Below the pieces are notes generated by a model. It was given only the letters and a program-made list of their open reading frames with translations. It was not told the DNA's origin and made no database searches. Both the position numbers and the translations under genes were made by a program. Shown one piece after another: positions 20,336 to 26,595 of a stretch of 64,000 bases of DNA. Positions within the stretch are counted from its first letter, which is position 1. Each line of letters opens with the position of its first letter. Origin of the DNA: Planobispora longispora (GTDB lineage Bacteria > Actinomycetota > Actinomycetes > Streptosporangiales > Streptosporangiaceae); the NCBI RefSeq assembly GCF_016863135.1, contig NZ_BOOH01000009.1, forward strand, positions 62,001 through 126,000, given 5' to 3'.

Positions 20336-22566
20336 CCGGCCTGCCGGATCGCGGGCGGAGGCCCTCGGCGGGGCGGGTGCTCGCCGTGGCGTCGGCCCTG
20401 CCCGCGCTCGCCCTGGCGGGCTGGCTGGCCGCCGGGCTCCCGCTGCTCCTGCTCGGCTGGTTCCGGCCGCTCGCCGCGGTCCCGCTGGGCCTGGCCGCGG
20501 CCGGGCTGCTGTGCCGGTACGGCCTGCGCCGCCCGCCCGGGATCCCCGCCGCGAGCGGATGGCAGGCGGCCGCGGTGGTCGCGGCCGCCCTCGGCTCGGG
20601 GATCTTCAACGCCGTCTTCCACAGCGAGCAGCTCATCGTCCGGCGCGACCCCGCCACCTACGCGCAGTACGCCGTCTGGCTGGCCACCCGCGGCTCACTC
20701 CCGATCCCGTACGGCGAGGCCGCCTTCGGCGGTCCCGACCCGGCGCTCCGCTTCGGCAGCGTGGGCTTCTACGACCACGGCGGCGCGGTCGTGCCGCAGT
20801 TCATGCCGGGGCCGCCGATGGTCCACGCGATCGGCCACTGGCTGGGAGGGGCGCCGGGGCTGCTGCTGACCCCGCCGGTGCTGGGCGCCCTGGCGGTGCT
20901 CGTTTTCGCCGGGACCGTCGCCCGGCTGGCCGGGGCCCGCTGGGCGGCGCTCGCCGCGCCGGCGTTCGCGGTGAGCCTGCCGATCCTCTACACCTCGCGG
21001 ACCGCCTTCAGCGAGATCCCGTCCCTGATCCTGCTCTTCGGCGGGATGTCCCTGCTGCTCGACGCGCGTGCCCGGCTGCGCGCGGCCCGGCGGGCGGCGC
21101 CGTCCGGCACGGCGGAGACGCCCGCCGTCCCGGCCCGCGACGCGACGGCCGGGGCGGCGGTGGCCGGACTGGTCTTCGGGCTCGCCATCCTGGTCAGGAT
21201 CGACGGCCTGCGGGACGTGCTGCCCGTGCTGGTCTACGCGGGGGCTCTGGTCGCCCTGCGCAGGGCCGAGAGCCGGGCGCAGGCGGCGTCGGGCGTCCGG
21301 AGGGCCGGCGGATCCGGCGCTTCTGCCCCGGAGACGTCGAGTGCCCGCGGGGACGGCAGGCTCGGCGTGCCGCTGCTGGCCGGGTTGCTGGCGGGCGCCG
21401 GCCTCGGCCTGCTCGCCGCCGTCCTGCTCGCCGCGCCGTACCTGGACTACCTCTCCGGCTCCCTGGTCCCCCTGCTGGCCGTCTGCGCCGCCGTCCTGCT
21501 CCTCACGGTGATCGCCGCCGCGCTCGCCCCCCGGCTCGCGGCCCCGCTGCGGAGGCTCGCCCGGATCCGGCGGCTGCCCGGTCTGGCGGGGGGCGCGGTC
21601 GTGCTCGTCATGGGCCTGTTCGCGATCCGGCCGCTGCTGCAGACCGTGACCCGCCACGCGACCACCCCCGAAGACCTGCTGACCTCGGACTTCATCGAGA
21701 AGACCCAGGCGGCGAACGGGTTGCCGTCGGACGGGACCCGGCTCTACTACGAGGACGCGCTGCACTGGGTGGCCTGGTACATCGGGCCTCCGGCGGTGGT
21801 GCTCGCCACGCTCGCGGGGGCCGTGCTGGTCCGCGGGCTGGTCAGGGGGATCGCCTCCGAATGGCTCCTCCCACTGATGATCATCGGCTGGACGACGGTC
21901 ACCACGCTCTACCGCCCGGCCATCACCCCCGACCACCCCTTCGCCGCCCGGCGGCTGGTCCCGGTGATCATTCCCGGGCTGGTGCTGCTCGCCGTCTGGG
22001 CGGTGCGCCGGATCGGGGAGAGGGCCCGGAGACGGGGGTACGGCGAGCCGACCGCCGCCGCGTCCGGCCGACCGGTCGCCGCCCGTCTCCGCCGCGCCGC
22101 GACCCCGGCCCGTCTCACCGCCCTCGGCGCGGTGCTCCTGCTCGTCCCACCGGCCGCGACCTCCATCGGGACCGCCTTCACCCCGGTCGGCCGGGGAGAG
22201 CGGGCGGCGGTCGAGGCCATGTGCGCCGCCCTCCCGGAGAACGCCTCGGTCCTGCTGGTGGAGCGGGTCACCGCCGACCGGCTCACCCAGCTCGTCCGGG
22301 GCGTGTGCGGCGTGCCCGCCGCCGGGGTCGAGGTCGCCCCGGACGCCGACCTCCCGGCGCCGGACGACGTCACCCGCCTGATCGGCCGCGTCCGGGCGGC
22401 GGGCCGGGTCCCGGTCCTGCTCGCCGCCGAGCCGGGCCAGCTGGCGCCGTACGGCACGCCGGTCCAGGTGATGGCCCTGCGCACCCGCCAGGACGAGCGC
22501 TCCCTGGTCAAGGCCCCCGACGGCACGTGGTCCCTCAGGATCGACGTATGGATGGCCGCGGGGTGA
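20299..22566 (+). CDS. Large polytopic membrane protein, GT-C-like
   Basis: A 755-aa protein with about twelve hydrophobic segments. The loop after the second or third helix (VRRDPATYAQYAVWLATRG) has the Asp and Tyr expected in GT39/GT83-type glycosyltransferases, followed by long hydrophobic repeats and a soluble C-terminal domain (about 620-755). A role in moving sugars from polyprenyl donors is likely but not proven. The start is uncertain: GTG 20299, ATG 20308, GTG 20320 and ATG 20329 are all in frame because of a 21-bp tandem repeat. No Shine-Dalgarno sequence is seen before any of them. The gene is divergent from the GT-C gene ending at 18665. Confidence 0.72.
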   Translation: MAIMGTSVAIMGTGLPDRGRRPSAGRVLAVASALPALALAGWLAAGLPLLLLGWFRPLAAVPLGLAAAGLLCRYGLRRPPGIPAASGWQAAAVVAAALGSGIFNAVFHSEQLIVRRDPATYAQYAVWLATRGSLPIPYGEAAFGGPDPALRFGSVGFYDHGGAVVPQFMPGPPMVHAIGHWLGGAPGLLLTPPVLGALAVLVFAGTVARLAGARWAALAAPAFAVSLPILYTSRTAFSEIPSLILLFGGMSLLLDARARLRAARRAAPSGTAETPAVPARDATAGAAVAGLVFGLAILVRIDGLRDVLPVLVYAGALVALRRAESRAQAASGVRRAGGSGASAPETSSARGDGRLGVPLLAGLLAGAGLGLLAAVLLAAPYLDYLSGSLVPLLAVCAAVLLLTVIAAALAPRLAAPLRRLARIRRLPGLAGGAVVLVMGLFAIRPLLQTVTRHATTPEDLLTSDFIEKTQAANGLPSDGTRLYYEDALHWVAWYIGPPAVVLATLAGAVLVRGLVRGIASEWLLPLMIIGWTTVTTLYRPAITPDHPFAARRLVPVIIPGLVLLAVWAVRRIGERARRRGYGEPTAAASGRPVAARLRRAATPARLTALGAVLLLVPPAATSIGTAFTPVGRGERAAVEAMCAALPENASVLLVERVTADRLTQLVRGVCGVPAAGVEVAPDADLPAPDDVTRLIGRVRAAGRVPVLLAAEPGQLAPYGTPVQVMALRTRQDERSLVKAPDGTWSLRIDVWMAAG

Positions 22567-22624
22567 GCTTCCGCACCCCGTGCCGGTGAAGGACCTGCCG
22601 GCTTCCCGCTACTTCCTTCGGCGG

Positions 22625-22650
22625 TTCCTACCGGGGTAGTACCATAGGAA
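22625..22650. promoter_or_regulatory. Inverted repeat at the toxin-antitoxin promoter
   Basis: TTCCTA (22625-22630) and TAGGAA (22645-22650) form an inverted repeat with 14 bases between. The -10-like hexamer TACCAT (22640-22645) overlaps it and ends 6 bases before the antitoxin ATG. This is where an RHH antitoxin would autorepress. Confidence 0.5.
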
Positions 22651-22651
22651 T

Positions 22652-22924
22652 ATGGCCGTAAGAAAAATCTCGGTGTCCCTTCCGGAAGAAGTGGCGGAAG
22701 CCGTCAGCGTGGCCGCTGAACGTGCGGGCCTCAGCGTGTCCGCCTGGGTGACCAGGGCAGCGGCCCATTCGGCGAGAGTCGAGGCGGGCTTGGCCGCGGT
22801 CACCGAATGGGAAAGGGAACACGGGGCCATCACGGCGGCCGACCTGTCCCGTGCGGCGGCGGTGCTCGCCGACGCCGATGCCCAGATGTTCGGGGGCGTG
22901 GATGAGGAGCGTATCGCCGGATGA
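22652..22924 (+). CDS. Ribbon-helix-helix antitoxin
   Basis: A 90-aa protein whose first 45 residues (RKISVSLPEEVAEAV, then AERAGLSVSAWVTRAA) form a typical ribbon-helix-helix DNA-binding unit. The C-terminal part (about 46-90) is an amphipathic tail that would bind the toxin. Its stop overlaps the start of the PIN-domain gene (ATGA), the classic type II toxin-antitoxin arrangement. The message is probably leaderless because a -10 hexamer lies 6 bases before the ATG. It should bind the inverted repeat in its own promoter. Confidence 0.85.
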   Translation: MAVRKISVSLPEEVAEAVSVAAERAGLSVSAWVTRAAAHSARVEAGLAAVTEWEREHGAITAADLSRAAAVLADADAQMFGGVDEERIAG

Positions 22925-23328
22925 GAGCGGTAGCCCCCCGTTCCGCGCTCGTATACGACGCGGGAGCCCTCATCGCGGCAGAGGCCGACAAAGCCGCCCT
23001 CTGGCATCTTCACCGGCAGGCGCTGGACGAGAAGCGCCGCATCATCGTTCCCGTTCCCGTGCTCGCTCAGGTCTGGCGGGGCTCTGCACGCCAGGCATCG
23101 CTGGCACGCCTGCTGTTCGGTTGCGAGATCGTGGAGATGGCGGAGGTCGTGGGGCGCGAAGCAGGCGTGCTGTGCGGGAAGGCACGCACCTCGGACGTGG
23201 TGGACGCCACCGTGGCCGTCATGGCGATCCGGACCACTGCGAGCATCCTCACCTCGGATCCGGGAGACATCGCCGTACTCCTCGACGCCGCCCGCCCGGC
23301 CGTCCGGCCCGCGCTGATCCCCGTATGA
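22921..23328 (+). CDS. PIN-domain toxin (VapC-like)
   Basis: A 135-aa PIN-domain ribonuclease-type toxin. The acidic active-site residues are visible: Asp13 in VYDAGALIAAE, Glu21 (or Glu46-region position), Asp92 and Asp95 in SDVVDATVAV, and Asp114 in ILTSDPGDI. PIN toxins cleave tRNA or other RNAs with Mg2+ when freed from the antitoxin. The gene is translationally coupled to the antitoxin. The module sits between cell-envelope genes and has no obvious link to them. Confidence 0.87.
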   Translation: MRAVAPRSALVYDAGALIAAEADKAALWHLHRQALDEKRRIIVPVPVLAQVWRGSARQASLARLLFGCEIVEMAEVVGREAGVLCGKARTSDVVDATVAVMAIRTTASILTSDPGDIAVLLDAARPAVRPALIPV

Positions 23329-23412
23329 CGGACTCACGGCCGGGAAACCGACGGGAGCCGAGGGGCGTCGGTCGAGAAGACGGTGGGATAGCCGTTCTCT
23401 GAGGGGGTTTGG

Positions 23413-23418
23413 CATAGT
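23413..23418 (+). promoter_or_regulatory. -10 hexamer CATAGT before the first FtsX-like gene
   Basis: CATAGT ends 6 bases before ATG 23425. The same TTTGG.ATAGTCG context recurs before the paralogue at 24542, so the promoter was duplicated along with the gene. Confidence 0.45.
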
Positions 23419-23424
23419 CGATCC

Positions 23425-24387
23425 ATGGCCTTCCGCGATCACCAGGAATCCTCCTCCGGGTACGAGGAGCTCTCCTTCGGCGGTGGCGACCCGGACCGGG
23501 AGCCCGGGGTCCGGGAGCGGCTCCGGACATGGCTGGAAGACCGGCGGCGGAGGCACGCCCGGCTGCTGACCGCCTGCGCCGTGGTGCTGGCGCTGCTCGG
23601 GGCGGCCGGGGCCGGGGGACGGTATCTCTACGAGCGTTCCCGCGAGCCGCTGCCCCCGCCCGACGCCCCGCTCTCCGCGCAGATGCGTATCGTGGCCCAC
23701 CTCTGCGGCCAGCGGGTGGAGGCGTGGACCTGTCCTGACATGGGCGAGGTGACGGATGCCGAGGGCCGGGCGATCGCCGAGCACATGCGGGCGATGCCCG
23801 AGTTGGAGGACGTCGCCTTCGTGAGCAAGGAGGAGGACGGCCGCAGGGCGCTGGCCTACTACACCGCCATCGGTGAACCGGAGCGGGCGGACGAGCTGTT
23901 CTTCCACGCCAGCGTCGAGGCCGTGCTCCGCCGCGGCGGGGACTTCGAGAAGGTCGCGGCCCGGCTGCGCGAGAGCCCCGGGGTCGTGGCGGTGCTCCGG
24001 GAGCTCCCGGACGTCTGGGCGGGCAAAGCCGACCTCGCCGTCGCCCTGTGCGTGGAGGGGGAGCGGCTGGCGCGGGGATGCCGGGAGGGCCGGACGGCCG
24101 GAACCGGGATCCCGGCGACCGAGAGGGAGAAGAAGGCGGTTCTCGACCGGCTGTGGGACCTGCCCGGCGTCGAGACGGTCTACTTGCAGGGCAGGGAGGA
24201 CGTCCTGCGGCTCAAGCGGCAGTACGAGCCGCAGGACCCGGCCGAGCACGTGCCTCTCGGGGCGGAGCGCACACGCGAGACCTTCTACGTGAAACTCTCC
24301 GACCCCGCCGGTCTCGCCGCGATCGCCGGGGCGGTCAAGCACCTGCCCGGCGTCGGAGGCGTGTTCCCCATCGGGCTCTCGGGATGA
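23425..24387 (+). CDS. Membrane-anchored protein with two FtsX extracellular-like domains (copy 1)
   Basis: A 320-aa protein with a cytoplasmic N-terminus (about 1-48), one membrane helix (about 49-68) and an extracytoplasmic remainder. Two successive segments resemble the FtsX extracellular domain: the first (about 85-200) holds MRAMPELEDVAFVSKEE and ARLRESPGVVAVLRELP, the second (about 235-320) holds LWDLPGVETVYLQGRE, TFYVKLSD and VKHLPGVGGV. Real FtsX is a four-helix permease that links FtsE to peptidoglycan hydrolases; here the permease helices are absent and no ftsE is near. It may bind a hydrolase or its regulator from outside. A Cys pair in each half could form disulphides. Function is inference. 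Confidence 0.7.
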   Translation: MAFRDHQESSSGYEELSFGGGDPDREPGVRERLRTWLEDRRRRHARLLTACAVVLALLGAAGAGGRYLYERSREPLPPPDAPLSAQMRIVAHLCGQRVEAWTCPDMGEVTDAEGRAIAEHMRAMPELEDVAFVSKEEDGRRALAYYTAIGEPERADELFFHASVEAVLRRGGDFEKVAARLRESPGVVAVLRELPDVWAGKADLAVALCVEGERLARGCREGRTAGTGIPATEREKKAVLDRLWDLPGVETVYLQGREDVLRLKRQYEPQDPAEHVPLGAERTRETFYVKLSDPAGLAAIAGAVKHLPGVGGVFPIGLSG

Positions 24388-24506
24388 CACCCACTCCGCC
24401 GGGGTGAACGCTCCCCGGCCGGGGACTCCCGTCTTCCCGACCGGGATCGCGGGTCCCGGGCCGGAGCGGGCGGACGCCGGGGTGGTGGAGGGGCTGCCGG
24501 GTGTGG

Positions 24507-24535
24507 GTGACGTCGAGTAGACGATTTGGGATAGT
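24507..24535 (+). promoter_or_regulatory. Promoter GTGACG-17-GATAGT before the second FtsX-like gene
   Basis: A -35-like GTGACG (24507-24512), a 17-base spacer and GATAGT (24530-24535) lie 6 bases before ATG 24542. The transcript would start at the ATG. Confidence 0.5.
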
Positions 24536-24541
24536 CGCCTC

Positions 24542-25501
24542 ATGCCGTTTCCTGAGCACGCGGGGCCGTCTTCCGGGGATGAGGAGCTCTCCTTCGGCGG
24601 CGGGCCCGATCGGGAGCCGTGGCTGCGGAACCGGGTGGAGGGGTGGCTGCGGGCGCACTCCCGGCTGGCGGCGGTCTGCGTCGTCGCGGCGGTGGTGCTC
24701 GGGGCGGCCGGGATCGGCGGCCGGTACCTCCACGAGCGGTCCCGCGAACCGCTGCCCCCGCCGGCGTCGGCGTTCCCGGAGCAGGTGCGGTTCATGGTCA
24801 TTCTGTGCGGCGGTTACGGGCCGGGGGAGGGTCGTGGCCGCTGTCCCGGGCGGAGGAAGGCCGGGGAGGCCGAGTACACGGCGGTGGCGGAGCGCATGCG
24901 GGCGATGCCCGAGCTGGCCGAGGCCTTCTACGTGAGCGGGGAGGGGCACGGGAAGCCGACGGTCCGCCGCGCCGTCATGGGTGAGGAGGCGGCGGAGGGC
25001 GTTCCCTTCACCCCCCATCTGCGGGGCACGTTGCGCCGGGACGCCGACTTCGCCGCGGTGGCCGCGCGGGTGGACGCGTTCCCGGAGGTCGAGGCGGTGG
25101 TCCGGGAGTTTCCGGATGTCTGGTCGGGCAAGGCGGATCTTGCGGTCCGGCTGTGCGCGACGGCCGACCGGCTGGAGGAGGAGTGCGCGCGGAACCGGCC
25201 CGGCGGAACCGCGGGCGCCGCCACCGACGCGGAGAAGGAGGCGGTTCTCGACCGGCTGTGGGATCTGCCCGGCGTCGAGACGGTCTACCTGCAGGATCGC
25301 GACCACCTCGCCCGGATGCTGCGGCGCCACGGGCCGCAGGGCGCGGACGGGGAGACGGCTCCCCCGCCGGAGCAGCTGTACGAGACCTTCTACGTGAAAC
25401 TCTCCCGCCGCGCCGAGCCCGCGGAGGCGGACAGGACGGCCGAGGCGCTGGAGTCCCTGCCCGGCGTCGGGGAGGTGCTCCCCGTCATGCCCGCGGGATA
25501 G
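24542..25501 (+). CDS. Membrane-anchored protein with two FtsX extracellular-like domains (copy 2)
   Basis: Tandem paralogue of the preceding gene (319 aa) with the same plan: DEELSFGGG-type cytoplasmic start, one membrane helix (about 43-62), the shared SREPLPPP stem, and two FtsX-extracellular-like segments (AERMRAMPELAEAFYVS; later LWDLPGVETVYLQDRD, TFYVKLS and ESLPGVGEVLPV). The second domain is far more alike between the two copies than the first, where copy 2 has an inserted Gly/Arg-rich loop. Each gene has its own leaderless-type promoter, so they can be expressed separately. Possible partners are NlpC/P60 hydrolases such as RipC, by analogy with FtsX; none is in the window. Confidence 0.7.
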   Translation: MPFPEHAGPSSGDEELSFGGGPDREPWLRNRVEGWLRAHSRLAAVCVVAAVVLGAAGIGGRYLHERSREPLPPPASAFPEQVRFMVILCGGYGPGEGRGRCPGRRKAGEAEYTAVAERMRAMPELAEAFYVSGEGHGKPTVRRAVMGEEAAEGVPFTPHLRGTLRRDADFAAVAARVDAFPEVEAVVREFPDVWSGKADLAVRLCATADRLEEECARNRPGGTAGAATDAEKEAVLDRLWDLPGVETVYLQDRDHLARMLRRHGPQGADGETAPPPEQLYETFYVKLSRRAEPAEADRTAEALESLPGVGEVLPVMPAG

Positions 25502-25651
25502 GGCCGGACGGGGCCGCCGGGCGGAAAAGGATCGGCGCCGGGAGGAAGAGGGATCGGCGCCGCCGCGTCCGGCGGCCGTCCTCGGGTGATCGAAAGCCTC
25601 GTGCGGATGGCCGAACCGGGTGATGTGGGTACGGCTTCCGGCTGGGCAGAG

Positions 25652-25657
25652 TATCCT
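25652..25657 (+). promoter_or_regulatory. -10 hexamer TATCCT of a probable leaderless GT2 gene
   Basis: TATCCT ends 8 bases before GTG 25666, with no Shine-Dalgarno sequence between. Confidence 0.45.
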
Positions 25658-25665
25658 CGCCCGTC

Positions 25666-26595
25666 GTGAGCACGCCCGAGACCCCCGAGAGTGGATCAGC
25701 TGTGGACGCAACGCCGTACGTCACGATCGTCCTGCCCTGTTACAACGAGCAGGACCACGTCATCGACGAGGTCGAGCGCATCTGCCGGGCCATGGACGAC
25801 AGCGGCTACACCTACGAGCTCGTGGCCGTGGACGACTGCTCCACCGACGAGACCCTCGCCCGCCTGAAGGAGGCCGCGCCGCGGTTCCCGAACATGCGGA
25901 TCAGGGCGTTCCACCGCAACGGCGGCTCGGGCACCGTGCGCAGGATCGGCACGCAGGAGGCGCGCGGCGAGATCGTCGTGTGGACCGACGCGGACATGAC
26001 CTATCCGAACGAGCGCATCCCCGAGCTGGTGCAGATCCTGGAGAAGGACGCCACGATCGACCAGGTCGTGGGCGCGCGGACCACCGAGGAGGGCTCGCAC
26101 AAGTTCCTGCGGGTCCCGGCCAAGTGGTTCATCCGCAAGGTCGCCGAGCGGCTGGCCGGGCAGAAGATCCCCGATCTCAACTCCGGGCTGCGCGCCTTCC
26201 GCAAGTCGGTCGCCCGGCCGTACCTGCGGCTGCTGCCCCCCGGGTTCTCCTGCGTCACGACGATCACGCTGTCGTTCCTGTCGAACCAGCACGACGTCTA
26301 CTACCTGCCGATCGAGTACAGCAAGCGGGCGGGCACGTCGAAGTTCAGCTTCGTCTCCGACGCCTACCGCTACATCCTGCAGGTGTTGCGGATGGTGATG
26401 TACTTCAACCCGCTCAAGGTGCTCATGCCGCCGGCGATCTGGCTGGTCGGCATCGGCATCGCCAAGGGGATCTACGACAACGTCAAGACCCCGTTCTACC
26501 TGGCCAACAACACCATCATCATCTTCGTGACCGGGCTGCTGATCGGGTCGCTGGCGCTGCTGGCCGACCTCATCGTGCGCTCCAGGAGCGAGTAG
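25666..26595 (+). CDS. Family 2 glycosyltransferase, polyprenyl-phosphate glycosyl type
   Basis: A 309-aa protein resembling dolichyl-/polyprenyl-phosphate mannosyltransferases. Visible are VTIVLPCYNEQ (about 19-29), VAVDDCSTDET (about 55-65), the metal-binding WTDADMTYP (about 106-114) and the NSGLRAFRKS region. Two hydrophobic segments at the C-terminus (about 240-260 and 284-304) anchor it. Such enzymes make the lipid-phosphate sugars used by GT-C transferases like those at 18.7-22.6 kb. It is the first gene of a plus-strand run with the GT4 gene, which begins 3 bases after its stop. Confidence 0.88.
   Translation: MSTPETPESGSAVDATPYVTIVLPCYNEQDHVIDEVERICRAMDDSGYTYELVAVDDCSTDETLARLKEAAPRFPNMRIRAFHRNGGSGTVRRIGTQEARGEIVVWTDADMTYPNERIPELVQILEKDATIDQVVGARTTEEGSHKFLRVPAKWFIRKVAERLAGQKIPDLNSGLRAFRKSVARPYLRLLPPGFSCVTTITLSFLSNQHDVYYLPIEYSKRAGTSKFSFVSDAYRYILQVLRMVMYFNPLKVLMPPAIWLVGIGIAKGIYDNVKTPFYLANNTIIIFVTGLLIGSLALLADLIVRSRSE

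Follow-up and report, generated by a model that had tools for sequence, protein, structure and literature searches.

Two genes, in the following termed A and B, lie in tandem on one strand of the window, i.e. of the whole stretch of 64,000 nucleotides of Planobispora longispora DNA which was analysed, at exactly the place where a preliminary description of this DNA had located them (Table 1). Their products share 49-51% identity and have the same architecture. A presumably cytosolic N-terminus, which in A bears the family motif EELSFG..DREP ahead of the transmembrane core, is followed by one predicted membrane helix and by two copies of the extracellular domain (ECD) of FtsX, here designated D1 and D2. 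The motifs by which this domain had originally been recognised are all present, but not all of them occur in each half as had been described, since MPEL..VS is found in D1 and FYVKLS as well as LPGV in D2. Between the two genes a short stretch, judged from its letters, is possibly the relic of a third copy of the ECD gene. When aligned locally to the 3' end of B, it scores better than 500 out of 500 shuffles, although this alignment is short and the evidence hence weak.

Table 1. Features of the tandem ECD genes (positions are those of the window).
Feature	Position	Strand	Description	Evidence
-10-like hexamer CATAGT of gene A	23413..23418	+	6 nt upstream of ATG	
Gene A	23425..24387	+	320 aa; predicted single-pass membrane protein, two FtsX ECDs	ORF, Pfam, AlphaFold2, Foldseek
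A transmembrane core (predicted)	23563..23628	+	~residues 47-68	Sequence; model helix 27-72
A FtsX_ECD domain 1 (D1)	23665..24012	+	Conserved pair C94/C103	Pfam 25.1 bits alone; tree
A FtsX_ECD domain 2 (D2)	24016..24384	+	Conserved pair C209/C219	Pfam 29.2 bits alone; Foldseek; tree
Possible relic, C-terminal end of third copy, between A and B	24389..24520	+	Frame ends PERADAGVVEGLPGVGDVE-stop	
-10-like hexamer GATAGT of gene B	24530..24535	+	6 nt upstream of ATG	
Gene B	24542..25501	+	319 aa; paralogue of A, same architecture	
B transmembrane core (predicted)	24665..24730	+	~residues 42-63	Sequence, aligned to A
B FtsX_ECD domain 1 (D1), diverged	24776..25117	+		Pfam 16.3 bits alone, under cut-off; family alignment and tree
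B FtsX_ECD domain 2 (D2)	25121..25498	+		Pfam 27.4 bits alone; D2 clade in tree

The Pfam family FtsX_ECD (PF18075) matches two stretches in each protein (E 1.2e-12 for A, 2.6e-9 for B). When the halves are scored separately, A-D1, A-D2 and B-D2 exceed the gathering cut-off of 23.5 bits and B-D1 remains below it (Table 1). The earlier assumption of an FtsX ECD in every half is thus borne out by the profile in three cases out of four, while B-D1 was assigned by means of the family alignment and a tree. A search of the PDB with a profile made from 26 family members retrieved FtsX chains only, with profile positions 93-183 matching pneumococcal FtsX (6mk7/6hfx/6he6; 5e-7) and positions 224-300 matching mycobacterial FtsX (4n8n; 3e-4). 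For A, AlphaFold2 predicts (mean pLDDT 78.9) one long N-terminal helix followed by two units of the type beta-alpha-beta-(lower lobe)-beta-alpha-beta. If the whole model is submitted to Foldseek, the top three PDB matches are FtsX ECDs (probability 1.00), and with a model of A-D2 alone ranks 1 to 9 are all occupied by FtsX. The TM-scores to the solved isolated FtsX domains are moderate (about 0.5-0.7), which means that the fold is clear while its details are not. In addition, B yields a match to AsnC_trans_reg (26.2 bits). As this match spans 24 residues of B-D1 which are aligned as FtsX ECD in the family, we read it as a partial match to a ferredoxin-like fold and rejected the assignment. Pfam, the PDB profile search, the model of A, Foldseek and the tree consequently agree with the preliminary description in that A and B each carry, by homology and predicted structure, two FtsX ECDs on one membrane helix.

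In previous studies FtsX has been treated as inseparable from the ATP-driven switch of cell wall hydrolases whose membrane half it forms. With FtsX from M. tuberculosis (8idb/4n8n) and S. pneumoniae (6mk7/6hee) the proteins A and B share a transmembrane helix which precedes the ECD as well as the beta-alpha-beta / lower lobe / beta-alpha-beta fold of the latter, and with FtsX of their own genome they share a cysteine pair at the equivalent position. In contrast to FtsX, they lack TM2-4, the permease domain and FtsE, contain the ECD twice per chain, possess a conserved cytosolic EELSFG tail and belong to a family from which a functionally important phenylalanine cluster (see below) is mostly missing. 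Instead of the four transmembrane helices and the permease of a genuine FtsX there is one N-terminal helix, and Pfam detects no permease domain in either protein. The matches to NCBIfam NF038346 (FtsX_actino) are weak and partial, being limited to the ECD (30.8 bits for A and 24.2 bits for B at a cut-off of 250); A and B are not FtsX permeases. No FtsE gene is present in their neighbourhood, where the adjoining genes are of the VapBC type or code for glycosyltransferases. The canonical FtsX of this genome (1.7e-44 to M. tuberculosis FtsX) is encoded on another contig, next to genes for an FtsE-like ABC ATPase and SmpB, both named by reading their sequences. Since a complete FtsEX exists elsewhere in the genome, A and B are additional proteins, and the absence of permease helices and of an FtsE partner, as formerly stated, is confirmed.

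Within the taxonomic family, 71 of 343 genomes, representing 16 of 68 genera, contain strong matches to the 26-member profile, often in several copies. Of the matches listed from outside this taxonomic family when 297 genomes sampled across the class were searched, all are single-domain and none comprises two domains. We regard A and B as members of a lineage-restricted protein family which occurs only in a single group of spore-forming soil bacteria. Its members conserve the cytosolic EELSFG..DREP segment, a linker rich in PP behind the helix and, between the two domains, the motif W-x-G-K-A-D, a subset of them having other N-termini. Each domain contains two cysteines, and all four are invariant in the family alignment, suggesting one disulphide per domain. 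In the own genome the EELSFG DNA pattern is limited to A and B, with a third match reading EELWFG. In a tree of 51 rows the D1 domains form a clade of their own (98/98), as do the D2 domains (100/100), and neither clade includes FtsX or solo ECDs. The separate clades indicate that the domain was duplicated once, before the genes were duplicated. TM1 and ECD of the own FtsX match family positions 46-185 (E 3.3e-18). The sequences, the predicted structure and the tree show that the family arose from FtsX, or from a solo FtsX-ECD protein, which kept the first transmembrane helix together with the ECD, lost the remaining permease and had its ECD duplicated once within the chain. The preliminary description knew of no characterised system of such design. 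In the literature searched, to which subscription papers largely do not belong, FtsX appears only within FtsEX and a free-standing doubled ECD is not described. The domain as such is already known; for its free-standing doubled form, with a single origin, wide occurrence and a lost binding surface, we found no description in these papers.

Both genes are preceded by a -10-like hexamer at the same distance from the start codon (Table 1), in line with the former claim that the promoters had been duplicated as well. An NANNNT hexamer ending 6-7 nt before the start codon is present in 37 of 41 EELSFG-type genes, compared to 4.5% at displaced control positions. For this count candidate starts were searched, which lends it a slight lean to success, and the control was granted an equal number of candidates. 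In several family genes TTGAC is found about 18 nt further upstream. The position of the hexamer corresponds to the geometry of leaderless transcripts and its conservation suggests that each gene is expressed from its own, probably leaderless, promoter.

The structure of M. tuberculosis FtsEX with RipC reveals the hydrolase to be held between two ECDs, one of each FtsX, via a phenylalanine cluster consisting of F61, F110, F113 and F122, whose mutation abolishes binding (PMC10694151). In the tandem family this cluster is mostly missing. All 17 FtsX and solo ECDs in the comparison have F61, as do 7 of 31 D1 domains but none of the 31 D2 domains. The corresponding position is hydrophobic in 52% of D1 and is occupied by H in A-D1, A in A-D2, I in B-D1 and R in B-D2. 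F113 is mostly lost, with the alignment being gapped around F110/F113, and the F122 position is hydrophobic in 97% of D1 and 77% of D2. As the fold is retained while the phenylalanine cluster is mostly absent, much of the known hydrolase grip is gone, from which we predict that the partner of A and B should differ from the RipC type.

We give an even chance to the view that A and B are passive, membrane-tethered extracellular binding modules with a diverged partner. According to their predicted topology the short conserved tail would reside in the cytosol and the two presumably disulphide-stabilised ECDs outside. By analogy to the FtsX dimer, the two ECDs of one chain would substitute for its ECD pair, act without ATP and hold a protein of the cell wall side at the membrane. 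Compared with the RipC-type hydrolase gripped by FtsX, this partner is probably diverged; a wall enzyme or the regulator of one would still be conceivable. If a doubled outer domain functioned without ATPase or permease, the ECD would prove to be a self-sufficient recognition module, and such small two-domain proteins would allow asking what an ECD pair does without FtsE.

The preliminary description had envisaged a decoy, a bridge between hydrolases or a sporulation-specific regulator. None of our results ties the genes to sporulation. As a dominant-negative or modulating decoy of FtsEX, the doubled ECD would bind the coiled-coil NlpC/P60 hydrolase of FtsX and thereby limit or localise wall cleavage. 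The fold is indeed that of the FtsX ECD, and the isolated ECD of M. tuberculosis FtsX is reported, in earlier work cited by PMC10694151, to be able to act on RipC without further help. Furthermore, the genome contains ten NlpC/P60 genes, at least two of which code, by eye, for long helical RipC-type N-terminal regions, and D1 has remained hydrophobic at the F122 and, in part, at the F61 position. Yet F61 itself, kept in all FtsX and solo ECDs compared, is missing from 24 of 31 D1 and 31 of 31 D2 domains, and no hydrolase gene was recognised near A and B or at the other family loci inspected. We consider a decoy of this kind unlikely. A decoy or bridge relying on the interface between FtsX and its hydrolase is weakened, most severely for D2, where the RipC-binding cluster is least conserved, and the hydrolase bridge was downgraded as leading model.

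Many copies of the ECD gene have the gene of a 755-aa membrane protein on one side and that of a GT2 glycosyltransferase on the other, in the otherwise conserved order PMT-like / 755-aa membrane protein / ECD / GT2 / GT4 / LPG_synthase_TM / methyltransferase, with the methyltransferase gene having served as locus marker across genomes. This gap is an accessory site. In the window it extends from 22566 to 25666, and across the taxonomic family it is empty or harbours VapBC-type genes (L098, L102, L104, L107), a Phd-like antitoxin gene (L114, by reading), large inserts or one to three ECD genes. The loci were selected by ECD matches, and the presence of the gene in the slot is not an occupancy rate. 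Genes for an RHH antitoxin and a PIN toxin (VapBC type; 22652-23328) directly precede A in the window. At the Planobispora rosea locus L037 the homologous pair instead separates A from a second, fragmented ECD gene, and a C-terminal piece of the 755-aa protein is duplicated there. No Rfam match is present in 22000-26500. Copies outside the slot are single genes in unrelated contexts, which led us to discard the search for an operon partner among their neighbours. Together with the frequently empty slot, these contexts imply that genome context points to no partner.

The ECD proteins have diverged much faster than the proteins encoded around them. Compared to P. siamensis, A shows 76% and GT2 97% identity, and outside the genus the ECD proteins retain 29-57% identity to A, in contrast to mostly 60-97% for the neighbours. 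The dN/dS ratios were counted by the simple Nei-Gojobori method, which is prone to overestimation in GC-rich genes, and amount to 0.33-0.47 for A orthologues and 0.54-0.80 for the faster-evolving B; some pairs come close to 0.9, with 0.94 for one Planomonospora pair. For other genes of the locus they are 0.15 (GT2), 0.29 (MT) and 0.43 (755-aa protein). The values of its orthologues show that A is kept as a coding gene.

Rapid evolution, restriction to one lineage, the presence of zero to three copies at one site plus scattered ones elsewhere and a slot in which toxin-antitoxin genes occur as well would all suit a decoy or immunity protein, whose sacrificial FtsX-like surface would absorb a protein directed against FtsX or its hydrolase, be it a bacteriocin or the product of a phage or competitor. 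Rapid evolution and accessory slots, however, have other causes too, and neither PADLOC nor PHROGs returned any match to a defence or phage family. Moreover, we know of no attacker of FtsX in these bacteria, and such a role in conflict appears quite doubtful to us. The position of many members within an otherwise conserved gene order could also denote a component of an envelope-glycan pathway, acting as accessory subunit of the neighbouring glycosyltransferases. This view had to be downgraded and now seems rather improbable, as the identical order is found without the ECD gene in many relatives (in L083 the flanking genes are merely ~70 bp apart), members elsewhere reside in unrelated contexts and each ECD gene possesses its own promoter. 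Finally, that A and B are drifting paralogues with little current function is hardly to be believed: the fragmented second copy in P. rosea (L037/L068), the possible third-copy relic and the high ratios of B and of the Planomonospora pair, which possibly reflect relaxed constraint, are opposed by intact frames, by cysteines and motifs invariant across deep divergence, by the lower ratios of A orthologues and by the conserved promoter geometry.

The own genome additionally encodes a solo single-ECD membrane protein (C16:276963-277640; L002:587-1851 with upstream region), the gene of which overlaps the end of an ECF-type sigma gene by 4 nt (ATGA). An ECF-type sigma gene is situated directly upstream in 13 of the 14 solo-ECD loci compared (see also L120-L133), and the solo protein is possibly an FtsX-domain sensor or anti-sigma factor for the ECF sigma factor. 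Like A and B, these proteins exhibit one predicted helix and an ECD without permease and occur in the same taxonomic family. Unlike them, they have a single ECD, keep F61 (14/14) and are encoded immediately downstream of the sigma gene. A sigma factor was dismissed as partner of the tandem family, as no such gene is present next to A and B or, according to a search with the own sigma factor, at 20 other tandem-ECD loci.

With respect to A and B as binding modules with a diverged partner, a more far-reaching version can be put forward tentatively, although we would sooner expect it to fail. The family would then be an ATP-independent, single-chain substitute for the FtsX ECD dimer directed at a new extracellular target, be it a wall enzyme not of the RipC type or a hostile protein which is absorbed. 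As in the same bacteria a single ECD would also have become the external sensor for an ECF sigma factor, the outer domain of FtsX would be a reusable extracellular recognition module outside FtsEX. In one relative (L055:10238-11176) the EELSFG/transmembrane region is replaced, by reading of the sequence, with a lipobox-like VASC start. The doubled-ECD design may thus also exist as a lipoprotein, and anchoring seems to matter more than the kind of anchor.
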